Source: a virus | IMG/VR virus record: IMGVR_UViG_3300037296_000177 | Span: 1 to 39,628 of that record | Length of the DNA stretch: 39,628 nt | Direction: 5' to 3' (one strand) | Shown: one piece after another, positions 2,447 through 39,628 of the stretch | How the letters are laid out: every line of letters begins with the position of its first letter | Position numbering within the stretch: the first letter of the stretch is position 1 | Position numbers and translations under genes: made by a program | The notes under the pieces: generated by a model | The model's input: the letters and a program-made list of their open reading frames with translations, nothing else | Told to the model about the DNA's origin: nothing | Databases searched by the model: none

Positions 2447-2782
2447 TAATAATTATATTAATTTTACCATAACCCCTTTGGTCCCTTTGGGGTCGTGTTG
2501 GTTCTTAGAACTCCTATATTCCCAACCCCTTCATGCTCTATGCACTACGAATCTAGGGGCCTGCGGTAGTGTGTAGAATTGCCTTTAAGAACGACCTAAA
2601 CCAAGTACAATAGATCTTGCTCACTTAACCAGGCACTACCAACCATTACCAAACCTAACCGCGCATTAGTAAGAAAAGCGCGGTTAGGCTAAAGCAATCA
2701 ACGGTACTATCTGGCCTCACTCCAAAGCAGCAACGAACAAAAGCGCGGTAAGAAGTACAAACTAATAAATATAGGGGTGCGT
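2447..2782. other. Intergenic region with two stem-loops
   Basis: No gene is supported here. An ACCCC...GGGGT stem-loop lies at 2472-2493 without a T tract, 25 bases after the int stop. A perfect 11-bp stem-loop lies at 2654-2688. An 11-base direct repeat AAAAGCGCGGT occurs at 2674-2684, where it forms part of the second stem, and again at 2739-2749. The region between 2640 and 2660 repeats ACCAACC/ACCAAACC-type words. The end of this stretch should hold the promoter of the next gene, but no clear -35/-10 pair is visible. Confidence 0.5.
2654..2688. repeat. Perfect 11-bp stem-loop
   Basis: CCTAACCGCGC (2654-2664) and GCGCGGTTAGG (2678-2688) pair perfectly around a 13-base A-rich loop. There is no T run on either side, so it is not a standard terminator. 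Part of the right arm is repeated at 2739-2749. It could be an operator, a replication hairpin or a structured leader. Confidence 0.6.
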
Positions 2783-3382
2783 ATGACGTCATCTAGTGAG
2801 GGTTTACCTAAAGTACAGGCACAATGCAAAGGGGTGGGGGCAAGGCATGCAGAACCCCCCACCCCCCACGGACAGGGTGGGTACCTAGATAACTGTAATA
2901 ATCCTAAGCCGCCTTTAAGGGAAAATAAAAATTCGAACGATGACAAAATGGTTAATAACCCATATCATGCCCGCCCCGATCTAAAGCAAGTAGACTTATT
3001 TTGGATTGAAACCGGTCCTAAGATTTTAACCGAGCACCATATACCCGTTTATACCGGCCGCGCCGCTCCAAGCATTCCGCCGCAATTTACAGATATAAAC
3101 TTGCCGCCAATGTGGCAGAGAATCGCCGCGTCTATCGGCTCAGAGCGTTTTCTAGAATTAATGGGGCTTATGTGGGATTTTGCCCCGCGCGACGGTGAGC
3201 GCCAGCGTGTGGACGTGCCCAGTCGCGAAACTTACACCCGATTATTTAGAAATGGGGTTATCCGCCAATGTGCAGCCATGGGGCTAGATAGCAATCAAAC
3301 CGTGCGAACGTTAAACCAGAAAAAAATCCCGGTATCAGAAACGACCGTAAATAGAGTTTTAAAATATATTCCTTGGGAGTAA
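2783..3382 (+). CDS. Mor-like HTH regulator (putative)
   Basis: The chosen ATG at 2783 has AGGGG five bases upstream and gives 199 residues; GTG 2777 and ATG 2948 are alternatives. Residues 1-55 are low-complexity and unlike a domain, and their DNA contains a 10-bp G/C hairpin (2831-2865), so translation from 2948 is possible. The C-terminal 90 residues resemble the Mor/C family of phage Mu middle/late activators: an amphipathic helix (WQRIAASIGSERFLELMG), a VDVPSRE turn, an RLFRNGVIRQ helix, then an HTH (KKIPVSETTVNRVLKYI). Such proteins activate phage operons as dimers. The target would be a middle or late promoter, but the match is by motif only. Confidence 0.65.
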   Translation: MTSSSEGLPKVQAQCKGVGARHAEPPTPHGQGGYLDNCNNPKPPLRENKNSNDDKMVNNPYHARPDLKQVDLFWIETGPKILTEHHIPVYTGRAAPSIPPQFTDINLPPMWQRIAASIGSERFLELMGLMWDFAPRDGERQRVDVPSRETYTRLFRNGVIRQCAAMGLDSNQTVRTLNQKKIPVSETTVNRVLKYIPWE

Positions 3383-3387
3383 AGAAA

Positions 3388-3801
3388 ATGGTTCACCGCG
3401 TTGTATTAATTTTTTTCGCCACCTTGCTAGGTGGCTGTATTTGGCATCCTGGGCCAGTGGGTGATATTAAAGATTTGATAGATAAAAATCTTAGCCGCGA
3501 GGGGTGGCAATATGTCGAGCATTACGAACACATGGGAAAGTTAACGATCGCCGTTTCTGTGCCCCCTAGCTTGTCAGATTTGGCATTTAGGGACGATCTA
3601 GAACGTAAGTTTTTGATAAGGACAGCAAGTGGCGCTTGCCCTACCGGGCTTTATATTAATATGGATAAAAGCCTGGGCCGTCCATTCAATCCAGCTACGG
3701 CAATAATTGGCGATGAATTTAAAGGCGTAGAATCGTTTGTAATCGATATTAAAGCGCAGGACGGGGCGTTGATAGGGTCTTATGATTGTTTAATGCCCTA
3801 G
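3388..3801 (+). CDS. Small outer-membrane or periplasmic lipoprotein
   Basis: The ATG at 3388 has GGGAG nine bases upstream and gives 137 residues; the frame is open five codons further back from a TTG. The N-terminus MVHRVVLIFFATLLGGC is a typical type II signal sequence with lipobox LGGC, so the mature protein should be lipidated. The rest is a soluble domain of about 115 residues with two more cysteines (TASGACPTG and SYDCLMP), possibly forming a disulfide. It is co-directional with the Mor-like gene six bases after its stop. A phage lipoprotein outside the lysis cassette is often a lysogenic-conversion or superinfection-exclusion factor, but nothing in the sequence proves this here. Confidence 0.75.
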   Translation: MVHRVVLIFFATLLGGCIWHPGPVGDIKDLIDKNLSREGWQYVEHYEHMGKLTIAVSVPPSLSDLAFRDDLERKFLIRTASGACPTGLYINMDKSLGRPFNPATAIIGDEFKGVESFVIDIKAQDGALIGSYDCLMP

Positions 3802-3868
3802 GGCTTGCAAAACCCCGCATACGGGTTATTATGTGCGAGCTGAACATGTGGAGTGGACAGTGAGCCCT

Positions 3869-3902
3869 AAAGGCCGGTAATTTTTAATTACCGGCCTTTT
3901 TT
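3869..3902. terminator. Bidirectional terminator between convergent units
   Basis: A perfect 14-bp stem (3869-3882 with 3886-3899) with a TTT loop is flanked by T on the right and A on the left, so it can stop transcription from both sides. It separates the + strand lipoprotein gene from the - strand gene at 3918-4091. Confidence 0.92.
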
Positions 3903-3917
3903 ATTGGGGTAATGAAA

Positions 3918-4091
3918 TTAATGTTTTAGTTGTTGCTGTGATAGCTCGATAATTCTTTCTATGTACGCTTTCCCCACCGCATTAGCACACTCATTCGCCC
4001 AAGCGATAAAAACGGGCTGCAGCGCGGGCGGTACGGTTTGGGTTGCGGGCCAGTCACTTATCATAGATGATACGGCGGCTTGTAATTTCAT
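3918..4091 (-). CDS. Small hypothetical protein after parB (57 aa)
   Basis: This short - strand gene starts at the ATG complement of 4089-4091, with GGAG eight bases upstream on the same strand, and ends at TAA (complement of 3918-3920). The product begins MKLQAAVSSMISDWPATQTV and ends with a Lys/Gln-rich helix, IERIIELSQQQLKH. It is probably helical, cytosolic and without a signal. It lies 160 bases downstream of parB in the same direction, with a parS-like element between them, so it may be a late member of the par transcript. A 44-codon + strand frame overlaps it but has no ribosome-binding site. The function is unknown. Confidence 0.62.
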   Translation of the reverse strand: MKLQAAVSSMISDWPATQTVPPALQPVFIAWANECANAVGKAYIERIIELSQQQLKH

Positions 4092-4120
4092 GGTCTAGAC
4101 TCCAATGTTTTTGCAAGTTT

Positions 4121-4151
4121 GGGCGGTGTTAGAGCACCGCCCTTTTATTTT
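4121..4151 (+). terminator. Rho-independent terminator facing the par operon
   Basis: An 8-bp perfect stem (GGGCGGTG 4121-4128, CACCGCCC 4135-4142) with a 6-base loop is followed by TTTTATTTT on the + strand. No + strand gene lies directly upstream. It could be a second barrier that protects parB from antisense read-through, or the end of a short antisense RNA against the 57-residue gene. Confidence 0.75.
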
Positions 4152-4161
4152 AAATTCTTTA

Positions 4162-4178
4162 AAGTTTCAGTGAAACTT
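4162..4178. promoter_or_regulatory. Secondary parS-like palindrome
   Basis: AAGTTTCA-G-TGAAACTT is a perfect 8+1+8 palindrome sharing the GTTTCA/TGAAAC half-sites of the main element at 4204-4251, with its centre about 72 bases away. A related half-site lies at the same distance from the other main element, near 7825. It is a likely ParB binding site. Confidence 0.7.
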
Positions 4179-4203
4179 CAAATACAGTTCTTACTACTTC
4201 CCA

Positions 4204-4251
4204 AAAAACCCTTATAAATCAAATACTTATAAGGTTTCACCAGTGAAACTC
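4204..4251 (-). promoter_or_regulatory. parS-like centromere element, copy A
   Basis: Core GTTTCAC-CA-GTGAAAC (4234-4249) sits just past the parB stop, followed on the - strand by a TATAA...TTGAT.TATAAGGGTTT block. Read on the - strand, the whole element matches copy B at 7751-7796 at most positions. The half-sites resemble the GTTTCAC/GTGAAAC arms of classical parS sites, but with two extra bases at the centre. ParB binding is inferred from this and from the location beside parB. Confidence 0.78.
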
Positions 4252-5222
4252 TATTTAACACCTAGGTTTTTAAGCGTTTCTTTAAACGATTTAAACAGCT
4301 CAGCGGCGGTTAAATCTTCGGTATCTAAACTCATCGTTATTTTAGACCCCTTTTCTTTCTTGGCCGCGATGGCTAATTTATCCCCGATTAAAGCTTGGTA
4401 TTCGTTTGCCGCTTTAGGCGCTTCGGCCTTGGTATTATTAACCGATTTAATCAAGTCGTTAATGACTGCAGCTGCCGCCATTTTTTTGCCAGCGGCTTTA
4501 AGGTTGTATGCTCTTTTTTCGACAGTGGCTTTCGTAGATGACGACTTTAATAACGATCCCAATTTTGCCGCGCTAGTGACCGGCATCGAAAGCGGGTCGC
4601 TGATTAATGCCATTACCGCCACATTATGCAAAACAAACTCAGCCGCCAAATATTTAGAAACGTGAGATTTTGGCTTGCCTCGGCGGGCGGCCAATTCTGA
4701 CGCTGTGCTAAATAGTTCCGCTTCTAATGCTGCAGCGTAAGATTTTGCCCGCTCCATTTCGCTAATATCTTCGCGGTCGTCATTCTCGCTGTCCATTTCA
4801 AGCCATGCGTCGACATCGCTCATATCCTCACCACGGGCCAAAACTTTATACCCGAGTACAGAGCAAGCATAAGTGCGGCGACGGCCTTTAATGATTTCGT
4901 ACAAAAAGCCGTCGGGGTCATTTTCTAGCTTTCTGACCTTGATGGGATCTTTTTGGCCGATCGCTCTAATCGATTCGATAATGTCGGCGCAATCATTTTC
5001 GTTTAATTTTGTTTGATCACGGTCATGCAATCGCCAAGGGCGGATCACTGCCGGGTCGATTTCAAGATCAAGGCGTTGGTGATGTATTACTTTTTGATCT
5101 TCTTTACGGGTTAATGAATCCAGCACCGGCAGTACCGGCTTTTTAGTAACTGGCTTTTCATCGCTTGCCTTATCGTCTAAAAATAAACTAGCCATATTTA
5201 CCGTGTTTCTTTTCTTACTCAT
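4251..5222 (-). CDS. parB: ParB, centromere-binding partition protein
   Basis: ParB binds parS and loads ParA so that plasmid copies are moved apart. The 323-residue product has an N-terminal arm for ParA contact (1-45). Next comes the ParB/sulfiredoxin-like domain, with GQKDPIKVRK (89-98) and the arginine patch IIKGRRRTYACSVLG (110-124), which is the CTP/DNA-clamp region of the family. The acidic segment SENDDREDISEMERAKSY (145-162) follows, then an HTH (ELAARRGKPKSHVSKYLAAE, about 176-195) and a C-terminal dimerisation region. The gene overlaps the end of parA by 8 bases, so the two are translationally coupled. A parS-like site begins right after its stop. The length fits plasmid ParBs of type Ia systems. 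Confidence 0.93.
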   Translation of the reverse strand: MSKKRNTVNMASLFLDDKASDEKPVTKKPVLPVLDSLTRKEDQKVIHHQRLDLEIDPAVIRPWRLHDRDQTKLNENDCADIIESIRAIGQKDPIKVRKLENDPDGFLYEIIKGRRRTYACSVLGYKVLARGEDMSDVDAWLEMDSENDDREDISEMERAKSYAAALEAELFSTASELAARRGKPKSHVSKYLAAEFVLHNVAVMALISDPLSMPVTSAAKLGSLLKSSSTKATVEKRAYNLKAAGKKMAAAAVINDLIKSVNNTKAEAPKAANEYQALIGDKLAIAAKKEKGSKITMSLDTEDLTAAELFKSFKETLKNLGVK

Positions 5223-6444
5223 TTTCTAGCCCCAATTTCTTTTTCTGTTCATCCATTTTTAAATTCAATCGCTCGCGGCGGTCTTGCATGCTCGGCCATT
5301 GGTTTAAAATTTCCTGTTCAATCATTCCGCAAGCATACTCAACAGCGGCCAACGGTTTAGCCTTTGGTCGGCGATCTTCCAAAATAGTGCCGAAAGTCAT
5401 TGCCGCATTAGCGATCTCTGAAAGCATAGGTACCTCGGCGGCTAATACGCCATCGCCAAACGCGGCGCGCATATACCCTAAAAAGGTTTTATCGGCCTTA
5501 TGGTTTTTTTGAACCTTGGTCGCTAAGATTTTCATAAAAGAATATTGCTTATCAGGCGCGATTCCTTCTAGAACACTTTCAATTAAGCGGAAAAACTGCA
5601 GCGTAGAACTAAAGTCGTAAAGCTGCGGCGGGGTTGGCACAACAAACGAATCGGCGGCGCATAAAATATTCATAGAGATCATGCCCAGCGCAGGCGGGCT
5701 ATCAATAATCACAACGTCGTAATTATTTTTAATAGAATCTAGGCCACGGCGCAAAGTAAAAAAGGCGTTTAATTTCTCCTCTCTCGACTTCATTTGCCCA
5801 ATCTTGGCGCCCATTTCTAATTCCAAATTATAAATTTGTAGGTTAGCGGGTATTAGATCCAGGTTAGGCCAATAGGTTTTTTTAATCGCATAATCGATAC
5901 TGCCCTGCTCGCCCCGAAAATAAGGCAAAAGTGTTTCGTCCTCATCGATGTGCAAATCAGGAATATAGCCGAAAGTAGTTGTCCCACTTCCTTGGCTGTC
6001 TAAGTCAGCCAGGCAGACGCGATAGCCTTGTGACGCGATGTATTGCGCCAATAAAACCGCTGTAACGGTTTTACCTACCCCACCTTTAAAAGACTGCACC
6101 GCGATAATTTGCGGCTGCTCGCCTAATGCTCGTTTCGGTAATGTGTTGCATACCGCGCGAAAGGCGTTTAATTGGTCTAAGCGATAACCGCTTACCTGGC
6201 CCCCGTCGCTGATTTGGCCGTCGATAAAATCAGGTACTAAGCCTTTTTCTATAAGCCCTTTTATTTTATTGGCGATCGTCGAGTGATGCTGGCCAACATC
6301 GGCCGCGACTTCTTTTCGACTCCATAAACGTTCCAGCACCTTTTTATCGTTCGGCTTTCGGCTTTCAGCTTCTACCGCCTCCAAAACTCGCTCGCCTCTT
6401 GCGAGTGCCTTTCTAACTAAATCTAATCCAATATTGCCTTGCAT
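5215..6444 (-). CDS. parA: ParA, partition ATPase (type Ia)
   Basis: ParA is a Walker-type ATPase that binds DNA non-specifically and moves ParB-parS complexes; type Ia members also repress their own promoter. The 409-residue product carries an N-terminal HTH (SRKEVAADVGQHHSTIANKI, about 42-61), as in P1 and F plasmids. The deviant Walker A is KGGVGKT at 120-126, A' is CLADLDSQGSGT (about 144-155) and Walker B is VVIIDSPPALG (244-254). The start has AAGGA seven bases upstream. It is the first gene of the - strand operon, and its promoter must lie in 6445-6570. The N-terminal HTH predicts autoregulation there. Confidence 0.95.
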   Translation of the reverse strand: MQGNIGLDLVRKALARGERVLEAVEAESRKPNDKKVLERLWSRKEVAADVGQHHSTIANKIKGLIEKGLVPDFIDGQISDGGQVSGYRLDQLNAFRAVCNTLPKRALGEQPQIIAVQSFKGGVGKTVTAVLLAQYIASQGYRVCLADLDSQGSGTTTFGYIPDLHIDEDETLLPYFRGEQGSIDYAIKKTYWPNLDLIPANLQIYNLELEMGAKIGQMKSREEKLNAFFTLRRGLDSIKNNYDVVIIDSPPALGMISMNILCAADSFVVPTPPQLYDFSSTLQFFRLIESVLEGIAPDKQYSFMKILATKVQKNHKADKTFLGYMRAAFGDGVLAAEVPMLSEIANAAMTFGTILEDRRPKAKPLAAVEYACGMIEQEILNQWPSMQDRRERLNLKMDEQKKKLGLENE

Positions 6445-6535
6445 GGGTAAATCCTTAGTGACTTCAATTTTTCATTAATGCTATAGAATTGAATCGGGCA
6501 GCACAACAGATATTTTCAATAAATATAAAAAAGTG

Positions 6536-6563
6536 TTGCTTTTCGGTGTTTTGCGTGTAAATA
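6536..6563 (+). promoter_or_regulatory. Candidate sigma70 promoter for the structured RNA
   Basis: TTGCTT (6536-6541) and TAAATA (6558-6563) are spaced by 16 bases, with TG directly before the -10. It points + strand, away from parA and into the hairpin-rich region. This is a by-eye match only. Confidence 0.45.
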
Positions 6564-6569
6564 TGCACA

Positions 6570-7418
6570 CTTAGGCAAGAAAGGCATAAACTTTCTAAGG
6601 CCTAGAGTTAGACAAAAATCGTTATATTTTGATTGATTTGGAGCAAGAAAAAACACAAAAAAGAAATAATGCCGAAAGGCCAGGGCCGTTTTTTTACACC
6701 TACAATGTCAAAAAACCTAAGACCCAGAAAGACAAAAGCCCACCGAAGCTGAAAAGCTAGGGCAGGCATTTTGCAGAGAACAGAGATTAAAAGATAACCG
6801 CTGCGACTCACACAATCACAGTATAACCGCTTTTAATTCCTGCGCCAGCAATCCGCCACTTTATACGCTGAAACTATCGTTTAGATAACGTTAGAGGCTC
6901 GCTTTTGCGTGTCTGTAAAACACTCTAAATCATCGGCGGGGGTCGCTTCATGCCCTGCAAAAAGTAAAACCGCCAAATGTAGCCGCTCTTTGCTTGTACG
7001 TCCGTGGTTTCGATCGTAAGAAACCTGTCTCGCTGGGCTTAGAGTGTGACCCCCCGATCAGAGGACCCAGGGGGGCGCGTGGAAGGATTACAGGAACTTT
7101 ACGACATGCAGGCAAAGGGGCGTTGATCAGGCTAGACCCCAAGCCGCTATTATTTAGGCCACGCCTCAAGCATGGGCTAAATAATAGCGACTAAACCACC
7201 CAAGCCAGTAAAGCTTTAGTGTTCGTATACCGAGGCCCTGTAATCGCGTTAGGCGCGGGGAAACCGTTATCGGTTGCATAGCTAACCAGCTGTATGCCTA
7301 GTTCATAACAGCCCTTAAGTTCATCATTTTGCATTCTTGCAACTTGGCGTCTTTAGGGAAGAACTAACAGCCCGAGGCGAGGCCGAGACACTGCGGGGCG
7401 GTTGGGACTCTTTTCTTT
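6570..7418 (+). ncRNA. Candidate large structured non-coding RNA
   Basis: Nested, mostly perfect stems run through this span. GCC-GAAA-GGC is at 6671-6680. GCCC/GGGC (6738-6741 with 6760-6763) encloses AGCT-GAAA-AGCT (6747-6758), and TTAGAG/CTCTAA is at 6891-6896 and 6923-6928. GGCGG/CCGCC is at 6935-6939 and 6970-6974, and GGTTTC/GAAACC at 7006-7011 and 7020-7025. A 6-bp C/G stem is at 7050-7075, and a 13-bp stem at 7145-7157 with 7177-7189. AACCG-TTAT-CGGTT is at 7262-7275, GCATAGCT/AGCTGTATGC at 7276-7297, and a long helix with an inner TTGCA hairpin at 7312-7358. GAAA caps favour the + strand. Size and phage context resemble giant phage RNAs such as GOLLD, but I cannot confirm membership. 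Confidence 0.55.
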
Positions 7419-7661
7419 ATTAGTGCCCGCTATTCATTAATCAATTAAACCTATATTAAGCATATTGATTTAATTGCCATTATTATTAAATATTGTTTTT
7501 AGATCGGTGCGTCGCCCTTGGGTGTTTTTTGTATCTTATTACGTTATGCTTACTCGGCATCCTGCTAAGGTGTTTAAGTATGGCTTGGGGGCATTTAGAC
7601 CTTTGCTAGACTGATTGATATAAAATATTGTCGAGATATATTTATCATGTTTTATGGGTAT

Positions 7662-7698
7662 ATAGTCATTGGCTTTCGGCGAATGACTATTACTTTTT
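7662..7698 (+). terminator. Terminator before the late operon
   Basis: A 9-bp perfect stem (ATAGTCATT 7662-7670, AATGACTAT 7682-7690) with a short inner extension is followed by TACTTTTT. It would end any + strand transcript from the hairpin region and insulate the terminase operon. Confidence 0.75.
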
Positions 7699-7750
7699 CA
7701 TCCTCTGAATTATTCTAAGTTAAAGCCTTTTTACTATAAAACTAACCAAA

Positions 7751-7796
7751 AGTTTCACTGGTGAAACTCTATAAACCCTTGATCTATAAGGGTTTA
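7751..7796 (+). promoter_or_regulatory. parS-like centromere element, copy B
   Basis: AGTTTCAC-TG-GTGAAACT (7751-7768) is an 8+2+8 palindrome followed by CTATAAACCCTTGATCTATA and AGGGTTT. Bases 7773-7780 and 7788-7795 also form an 8-bp inverted repeat. It matches copy A (4204-4251) in inverted orientation. It lies 110 bases upstream of the terminase gene, where ParB binding could affect late transcription. Confidence 0.78.
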
Positions 7797-7822
7797 AAGC
7801 CAACCCCTAAGAATATTTATCC

Positions 7823-7840
7823 AAAGTTTCACCGCTGGCC
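7823..7840. promoter_or_regulatory. Partial parS-like half-site
   Basis: AAAGTTTCACCGCTGG keeps one clear GTTTCAC half-site. Its centre is about 72 bases from copy B, the same spacing as the pair at 4162-4178 and copy A. The second half is degenerate, so this is weaker than the other three sites. Confidence 0.5.
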
Positions 7841-7856
7841 CCTCAAATCCCCTCGC

Positions 7857-7875
7857 GCCTAACTTAATGTTAGGC
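7857..7875 (+). promoter_or_regulatory. Hairpin covering the terminase start region
   Basis: GCCTAAC (7857-7863) and GTTAGGC (7869-7875) form a perfect 7-bp stem with a TTAAT loop that ends one base before the ATG at 7877. It would hide the only weak AGG ribosome-binding site, so it may limit terminase translation. Confidence 0.55.
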
Positions 7876-7876
7876 C

Positions 7877-8809
7877 ATGACAAAAACCGCCGCCCAAAAT
7901 TCTAATTTATCCTTTTATTGCCTCATGCCATGTGGGCAAAGATTTAAGGCCGAACCCGAAACCGAAATTGAAAGTCGTGGTGAAAGGGTGCCCGCTGCAC
8001 CGTGTCCAAAGTGCAAAAACATGGCGGCTCAGGTCGGTTGGGAGCGTAACCTTGCCAAAGCAGCAGGTAAGCAAACAGGGCCAAAAACCGACGCCGGCAA
8101 AGCCAAAACGGCGGCCAATCTTGAAGGCTACCCCACCGAAGAACAGAAAAAAAACACCCGTTTAAATGCCCTAAAACACGGCGCCTTTGCGAAGACGGCA
8201 AAGTATTTCCCCGCGCGCCCTGGGCAATATGACCGCTGCGACTCGTGCACAGTCGATTGGAACGACTGCAGCGCCAACGAGGTTTGCATTAGCCGAACCG
8301 AAGTTTTTATGCGCCACCAAATCGCGCAAGAAACCGATAACCCGTCTTTATTGCGATCGCTGCAGGCCGACAACCAAGCCAACATACAAATCGTATTAGA
8401 AGATTTATTTATGAACATCGCGTCTAACGGTGCCATGTTTAAAAACCCGAAAACGATTACCGATTTTAAAAATAGCGAAACCCATATCGCAAAATATGTA
8501 GACCCTGAAACGGGCGACTACAAAACAATCTTCGAACACACCGCTAACCCCGCGGTAAAACTCGCCATCGAATTAATGAACAAAAACGGCATGACCTTGG
8601 CCGATTTAGGCATGACCCCAAGATCCCAAGGCGAAGTGCAACAACTAAAAGGCAACTTAAGCGGCGACAGCAAAGGCGCATTAGACGCCGCGAAAGAAAT
8701 GCGCGCCAGTATGGGCGATTTAAAAGAGCTGCTAAGCCGTGGTAAACGCGACAAGGCCAATGACCCCGTATTAATCGAATATAACGCCGAACAAGGCAGC
8801 TCAGAATGA
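7877..8809 (+). CDS. terS: Terminase small subunit (putative), two Cys clusters
   Basis: The gene lies directly upstream of the large terminase and overlaps it by ATGA, so it is most likely the DNA-recognition subunit of the packaging motor. The 310-residue product is longer than typical small terminases. Residues 15-46 form a zinc-ribbon-like set (Cys15, Cys19, Cys43, Cys46 with CPKC). A basic, Gly/Lys-rich stretch follows (61-103, ending in NTRLNALKHG), then a second cluster at Cys121, Cys124, Cys131 and Cys137. The C-terminal half is helical and charged. This is the first gene of the late operon. Its role rests mainly on position; a zinc-binding DNA-recognition role is inference. Confidence 0.7.
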   Translation: MTKTAAQNSNLSFYCLMPCGQRFKAEPETEIESRGERVPAAPCPKCKNMAAQVGWERNLAKAAGKQTGPKTDAGKAKTAANLEGYPTEEQKKNTRLNALKHGAFAKTAKYFPARPGQYDRCDSCTVDWNDCSANEVCISRTEVFMRHQIAQETDNPSLLRSLQADNQANIQIVLEDLFMNIASNGAMFKNPKTITDFKNSETHIAKYVDPETGDYKTIFEHTANPAVKLAIELMNKNGMTLADLGMTPRSQGEVQQLKGNLSGDSKGALDAAKEMRASMGDLKELLSRGKRDKANDPVLIEYNAEQGSSE

Positions 8810-39388: not shown

Positions 39389-39579
39389 AAAGAGCCAGCG
39401 CCGACGAATTACGACAAGGGCTTAAAAGCGCCCAGGTATTTGCTAAGGCAGGGGTCGATTTTGTTTGCATACCAATCATTAGCCAGGCTAATAAAATCGA
39501 CCTTAGAAATCAGGCAGAGACAGCAATAGAAAAGCTCATAGAGCTAGCCGAAGCGGTAGAAGAAAATGAAAATAAATGA
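39385..39579 (+). CDS. DUF1382-like small early protein (64 aa)
   Basis: The complete 64-residue gene (MKRASADELRQGLKSAQVFA KAGVDFVCIPI...) resembles the DUF1382 family found in early regions of lambdoid phages: a Ser-x-x-ELR helix, then KAG.xFV.IPV, then a charged C-terminal helix (EKLIELAEAVEENENK). The molecular role of the family is unknown to me. It overlaps the previous gene by four bases. Its 3' part recurs at 1-78 because of the contig overlap. Confidence 0.78.
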   Translation: MKRASADELRQGLKSAQVFAKAGVDFVCIPIISQANKIDLRNQAETAIEKLIELAEAVEENENK

Positions 39580-39628
39580 GTTCGTTTTTATAAGTGCCCG
39601 CCAGTGTGGTAAGAACTACTCGAGAGCA
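39502..39628. repeat. Terminal direct repeat, right copy
   Basis: This is identical to 1-127. Bases 39566-39628 also repeat the first 63 bases of the gene at 65-313. One copy should be removed to obtain the circular sequence. Confidence 0.95.

Follow-up and report, generated by a model that had tools for sequence, protein, structure and literature searches.

Mirrored arrays of putative ParB-binding centromere sites with IHF-like motifs flank the parAB operon of a circular temperate phage

The window, meaning the whole stretch of 39,628 nucleotides that was analysed, is the record of a complete circular virus in which bases 1-127 are identical to 39502-39628. This 127-base direct terminal repeat reflects a closed circle or terminal redundancy; 127 is also a frequent assembly word length. 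The window contains a head and tail gene set of tailed-phage type (terL, portal, head protein, a Mu-like protease and a tape measure gene), genes for a CII-like regulator, a primase and two tyrosine recombinases, and a parA-parB pair on the minus strand. The phage is temperate and most likely lives as a plasmid, though it carries an integrase gene. A linear phage-plasmid telomere (protelomerase site) was rejected: no protelomerase family was found among the proteins scanned, and the terminal repeat closes the record. The features of the partition locus and of the gene that follows it are these:

4164..4176, minus strand: left outer ParB-type site GTTTCACTGAAAC, including a GTTTCAC at +73 from the main-site start (motif search)
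4206..4216, minus strand: left TATAAGGGTTT block, identical to the right copy (array comparison)
4217..4229, plus strand: left IHF-like site AATCAAATACTTA, exact to WATCAANNNNTTR, 4 bp outward of the core (motif match; orientation as in Legionellaceae relatives)
4234..4249, minus strand: left putative parS core GTTTCAC-TG-GTGAAAC (parB direction), directly past the parB stop (exact match; homologous site at the parB stop in 8 of 8 relatives)
4251..5222, minus strand: parB, 323 aa, with ParB_N domain and Spo0J/Noc-like CTPase plus HTH region (domain and profile searches)
5215..6444, minus strand: parA, 409 aa, Walker ATPase with an N-terminal extension (domain and profile searches; 46-48% identity to Legionellaceae ParA)
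6445..7750, no strand assigned: noncoding region from parA to the right array (no Rfam match; hairpin at 7142-7192; no DNA relatives)
7752..7767, plus strand: right putative parS core GTTTCAC-TG-GTGAAAC, the left core inverted (exact match)
7772..7784, minus strand: right IHF-like site GATCAAGGGTTTA, one mismatch, 4 bp outward of the core (motif match)
7785..7795, plus strand: right TATAAGGGTTT copy (array comparison)
7826..7832, plus strand: right outer GTTTCAC heptamer, +74 from the main-site start (motif search and alignment)
7877..8809, plus strand: terS-position ORF, upstream of terL and first in the packaging/head operon (syntenic homologues before TerL in nearly all TerL relatives; terL is phrog_2)

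ParA is a Walker-type ATPase (PF13614, E 5e-37; phrog_164, E 2.5e-64). ParB matches ParB_N (PF02195) with E 4.7e-5 and 23.8 bits, slightly under the curated cut-off of 26.3, and its profile matches Spo0J, Noc and ParB structures (E ~1e-12) across the N domain and the start of the HTH. The two genes overlap by 8 nt, and a centromere-like site lies at the parB stop. With a Walker ParA, a ParB possessing ParB_N/CTPase and HTH regions, and an operon adjoining a centromere-like site, the locus is predicted to encode a ParABS system. An AlphaFold model of ParB was discarded (pLDDT 36). Phylogenetic reconstruction groups the window ParB with the GTTTCA clade (support 98/81), on a branch so long (1.99) that its exact position in the tree is unsure.

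A 46-base element present twice in inverted orientation had been described in the first-pass annotation, and it was recovered as an inverted repeat of 45 nt (4206-4250 and 7751-7795) that is 84% complementary, with its arms 3500 nt apart. The best ungapped match of one flank to the other scored 27.5, well above the maximum of 13.5 in 60 dinucleotide-preserving shuffles. Within the repeat are exact 16-mer cores at 4234-4249 and 7752-7767, inverted with respect to one another; no other copy of the core was found in the window at up to 3 mismatches. In the outward direction, each array consists of GTTTCAC-TG-GTGAAAC, 4 bp, a TAAN4TTGAT IHF-like site, TATAAGGGTTT, a spacer, and a third GTTTCAC, in this order. 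The block TATAA...TTGAT.TATAAGGGTTT is thus present beside both cores as had been claimed, and the secondary GTTTCA sites that had been placed about 72 bases outward are found as GTTTCAGTGAAAC at 4164-4176 and as GTTTCAC at 7826-7832. These third heptamers share one orientation; counted from where the main site starts, they begin at +73 (left) and +74 (right). The centre lengths also agree with the original description, being 2 bases in the main sites and 1 base in the outer site at 4164-4176. Seven GTTTCAC heptamers occur in the 39.6-kb window, and six of them are inside the two arrays.

A MAFFT alignment extends the similarity of the arrays beyond 46 nt to their whole length of ~85 nt. The spacer before the third heptamer has diverged, with TAAGAA still common to both arrays, and four of the seven differences between the arms are at the four positions that the IHF consensus leaves unspecified. 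The TATAAGGGTTT block (4206-4216 and 7785-7795) does not vary between the arrays. It falls outside the IHF consensus, is missing from the Legionella sites and is a candidate second ParB box.

The eight closest ParB homologues are all from Legionellaceae (plasmids and genomes), and each of them has a perfect GTTTCA-N4-TGAAAC close to the parB stop, at -8 to +13 nt. The 16-mer pattern occurs 0-2 times per genome among ten genomes of 1.3-4.4 Mb, with 8 of its 10 occurrences at parB stops, and once each in the complete 239-kb and 141-kb Legionella plasmids. The site expected in relatives with this type of ParB is there, but its mirrored second copy is not: no such copy was found near parAB in the Legionellaceae relatives examined. 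The third GTTTCAC heptamer was likewise not seen at the Legionellaceae sites. The left array is best read as the ordinary or ancestral parS at the end of parB. As to the centromeres proposed in the first-pass annotation, the conserved half-site, the spacing and the position at the parB stop in all eight closest relatives argue well for the left array and strongly suggest the right one.

Where a site could be detected in more distant ParB clades, it is mostly another palindrome in the corresponding position (for example AATCCGAGTACTCGGATT in a large Legionellales clade and GTTTCCCCGGGGAAAC in an intermediate lineage), a sign that ParB and its site co-vary; at some distant ParB loci no site was seen at the parB stop. 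One Legionellales ParB clade (L082-L095) has AATCCGAGTACTCGGATT or CCGGATATCCGG variants in tandem, about 25 bp apart, across the parB stop, and it reads as a clean case of this co-variation. The locus offers a testable case of ParB-centromere co-evolution, with the half-site of chromosomal parS and a centre 2 bp longer.

The TTGAT block beside the core, whose nature had been overlooked, corresponds by motif to an IHF-like consensus site. Compared with WATCAANNNNTTR, the left copy is exact and the right copy differs at one base. Outward of the core, at a distance of 4-7 bp, 10 of 10 sites have a TAAN4TTG motif in constant orientation and with 0-2 mismatches, one of them with ATG for TTG; among these, the motifs of the eight relatives begin at a distance of 6 or 7 bp. 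By chance, ~1.3% of such sequences would be expected to have the motif with no more than one mismatch at gaps of 4-7, the relatives being not mutually independent. An IHF-like site appears to have been retained across a large distance in ParB.

Exact copies of AGTTTCACYRGTGAAACT are present in 7 stretches of IMG/VR. A ParA/ParB pair is found on only one of these contigs, where the site is tens of kb from parAB. The matches were rejected as parS because of this distance and because several read AAAAAGTTTCACCGGTGAAACTTTTT, and they are taken as chance or terminators. Seventeen viral contigs have the core-plus-IHF pattern, none with a detectable parAB of this type in the stretch examined, and no close relatives of the window ParB were found in viral contigs. 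The core itself was rejected as an intrinsic terminator, neither copy being in the terminator-scan list.

Since the similarity of the arrays covers the whole 85 nt, the right array most likely arose by inverted duplication of the entire array, its functional parts being kept, and this duplicate appears to be specific to this phage. Because the relatives have no counterpart of it, the argument for its function is drawn from internal conservation only. The right core ends ~110 bp before the terS-position ORF. In the TerL-related phages in which a homologue of ORF 2777-3382 was recognised (n = 14), that homologue ends within ~150 bp of the terS-position gene in nine and is separated from terS by 1.2-3.4 kb in five. 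The corresponding slot in the window (3382-7877) is 4.5 kb long and contains parAB and both arrays. The slot between this conserved small gene and terS varies from ~0 to 4.5 kb in the phage group. A search of 40 TerL relatives, including many fragments, found no ParA. The varying length of the slot suggests that the partition cassette is cargo, and from its position before terS the right array is probably part of the packaging-operon leader. On the plus strand, terminator-like sites precede the cassette (3869-3899 and 4121-4142) and a promoter-like site (7615-7642) points to terS, which makes a start of late transcription between parA and terS probable; the scans for promoters and terminators gave no excess of sites over shuffles. 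A second centromere-like array at the start of the packaging genes would be a natural setting in which maintenance as a plasmid could be tied to late gene control.

The noncoding region has a hairpin at 7142-7192 with 23-nt arms and a 5-nt loop, and 150-nt pieces near it fold better than shuffles (z ~-3.8, minus strand). The region matched no Rfam family, and no related DNA was found for it; it is possibly a prophage origin or a regulatory RNA region. By analogy with phage RedRock, the hairpin could be part of an RNA-based prophage origin. At 7661-7705, on the plus strand, a perfect 9-bp stem (ATAGTCATT...AATGACTAT) with an 11-nt loop is followed by a T-rich stretch, possibly a weak terminator of a transcript from the noncoding region.

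These features suggest, with a probability of about 80%, that each element is a full ParB-binding centromere array (parS) belonging to a ParABS system, and that the circular temperate phage carrying them is most likely maintained as a plasmid. Both arrays would consist of a palindromic GTTTCAC pair, an IHF bend site and a third GTTTCAC, as in P1 parS. ParB would load at the core, IHF would bring the third box into the complex by bending the DNA, and ParB-CTP would spread from there, with ParA moving the ParB complex in segregation. The left array at the parB stop would be ancestral, and the right array an inverted duplicate kept at the far end of the cassette. The maintenance genes and the noncoding region would then be enclosed in a domain that ParB could enter from either end. 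Sequence comparison shows the site with its conservation and spacing, the IHF-like motif, and that no second copy was found in relatives; binding of ParB and IHF, the duplication event, the plasmid lifestyle and the partition function are what we infer.

The right array might instead be mainly regulatory, with ParB (together with IHF) in the packaging leader repressing or timing the late genes and so coupling partition in the lysogen to silence of terS and terL. This is a tentative possibility. It accords with the ~110 bp between the right core and the terS-position ORF, with the probable late start between parA and terS to which the terminator-like and promoter-like sites point, and with the direct adjacency of the upstream gene to terS in 9 of the 14 relatives; the partition proteins of the phage-plasmid N15 reportedly affect late gene expression (Ravin et al. 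2008, cited in PMC11652158). A plain operator, however, would need neither an IHF-like site nor a third box at a kept distance, and the promoter and terminator scans are no richer than shuffles. More speculative is a combination of the two functions, in which an IHF-assisted centromere was duplicated in mirror and, through the copy in the packaging leader, the partition complex formed in the quiet plasmid state would silence the late genes as well. If true, one protein-DNA complex would serve both segregation and the choice between lysis and lysogeny.

In the loop suggested as possible in the first-pass annotation, the mirrored arrays would join their flanks around parAB and the noncoding region, here by way of ParB bridging. 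ParB proteins bridge and condense DNA, and the mirror orientation and matched internal spacing of the arrays are consistent with such a loop, yet ParB bridging is independent of site orientation, relatives have one site, and a loop and two independent loading sites would look alike in sequence; this model is considered doubtful. Decay of the right copy into a functionless remnant of a duplication is improbable: the array is absent in relatives and its IHF-like site has one mismatch, but the core is identical at 16 of 16 positions and the third heptamer is intact at its kept offset, while the surrounding spacer has diverged. It is very improbable that the 45-bp inverted repeats are transposon-like ends of a mobile cassette that brought in parAB. 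They do lie near both ends of the variable-length slot from the 2777-3382 gene to terS, but there is no recombinase gene between them, the relatives' core at the parB stop stands without a partner, and the IHF-like site and third box fit a centromere.

The array resembles P1 parS (NC_005856, annotated 58912-58994), which has an A box, 3 bp, the IHF site TAACTGACTGTTT and an A/A palindrome. Since an IHF site is annotated between the A boxes in that record, the layout of the phage array is of the P1 type: a palindromic box pair and a further box are present, and the IHF site between them is present as a motif. Both sites lie just past parB and have a TTTCA-type palindromic box pair and a separate box across the IHF site, and the IHF sites (TAACTGACTGTTT in P1, TAAGTATTTGATT in the phage) have the same direction relative to parB. 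The box order differs, as the pair adjoins parB with the single box outside in the phage and the reverse is found in P1. The half-site is GTTTCAC with a 2-bp centre in the phage and ATTTCA(A/C) with a 1-bp centre in P1, and P1 has one array whereas the phage has two, in which no equivalent of the P1 B boxes was recognised. The likeness is one of site layout, with no sequence link to P1 ParB demonstrated.

As in the phage, the sites of Legionellaceae plasmids (L. fallonii plasmid II, L. antarctica pTUM19329-1, L. steelei and others) combine GTTTCA-N4-TGAAAC at the parB stop with an IHF-like site after it; the proteins are 46-48% (ParA) and 33-46% (ParB) identical. Unlike the phage site, they are single copies with the centre TAAA/TTTA, and have no third box and no mirrored array. 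The half-sites had also been likened to classical parS. Chromosomal parS is TGTTTCACGTGAAACA; the half-site GTTTCAC is shared, but the phage half-sites are 2 bp further apart, so that the likeness is limited to the half-site, and identity with chromosomal parS, which has no bases between the half-sites, was rejected.

Near-identical palindromes are found on both sides of the parA match in 4 of 32 scanned viral parA loci (L171, 7887/9022; L186, 7748/9213; L209, 4053/9920; L240, 7847/9183), and paired flanking centromeres may be widespread in phage-plasmids. In the mycobacteriophage RedRock, parS-L and parS-R are present in the partition cassette of a phage-plasmid, and a noncoding RNA region adjoining parA is the prophage origin (PMC7157519). 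A RedRock parS comprises eight copies of an 8-bp motif in direct repeat, whereas each phage array is a palindromic pair and a single box with an IHF-like site. As in RedRock and pB171, centromere-like sites lie on both sides of parAB in the window, at 4164-4249 and 7752-7832. The par2 system of pB171 is a different partition family, with a small ParB and short direct repeats. Its constructs have the order parC1-parA-parB-parC2, with parC1 and parC2 as centromeres (PMC4270457). Paired centromeres around parAB are thus already known from RedRock and pB171, and the novelty lies in an IHF-type array being combined with mirror duplication and with a position at the packaging operon.
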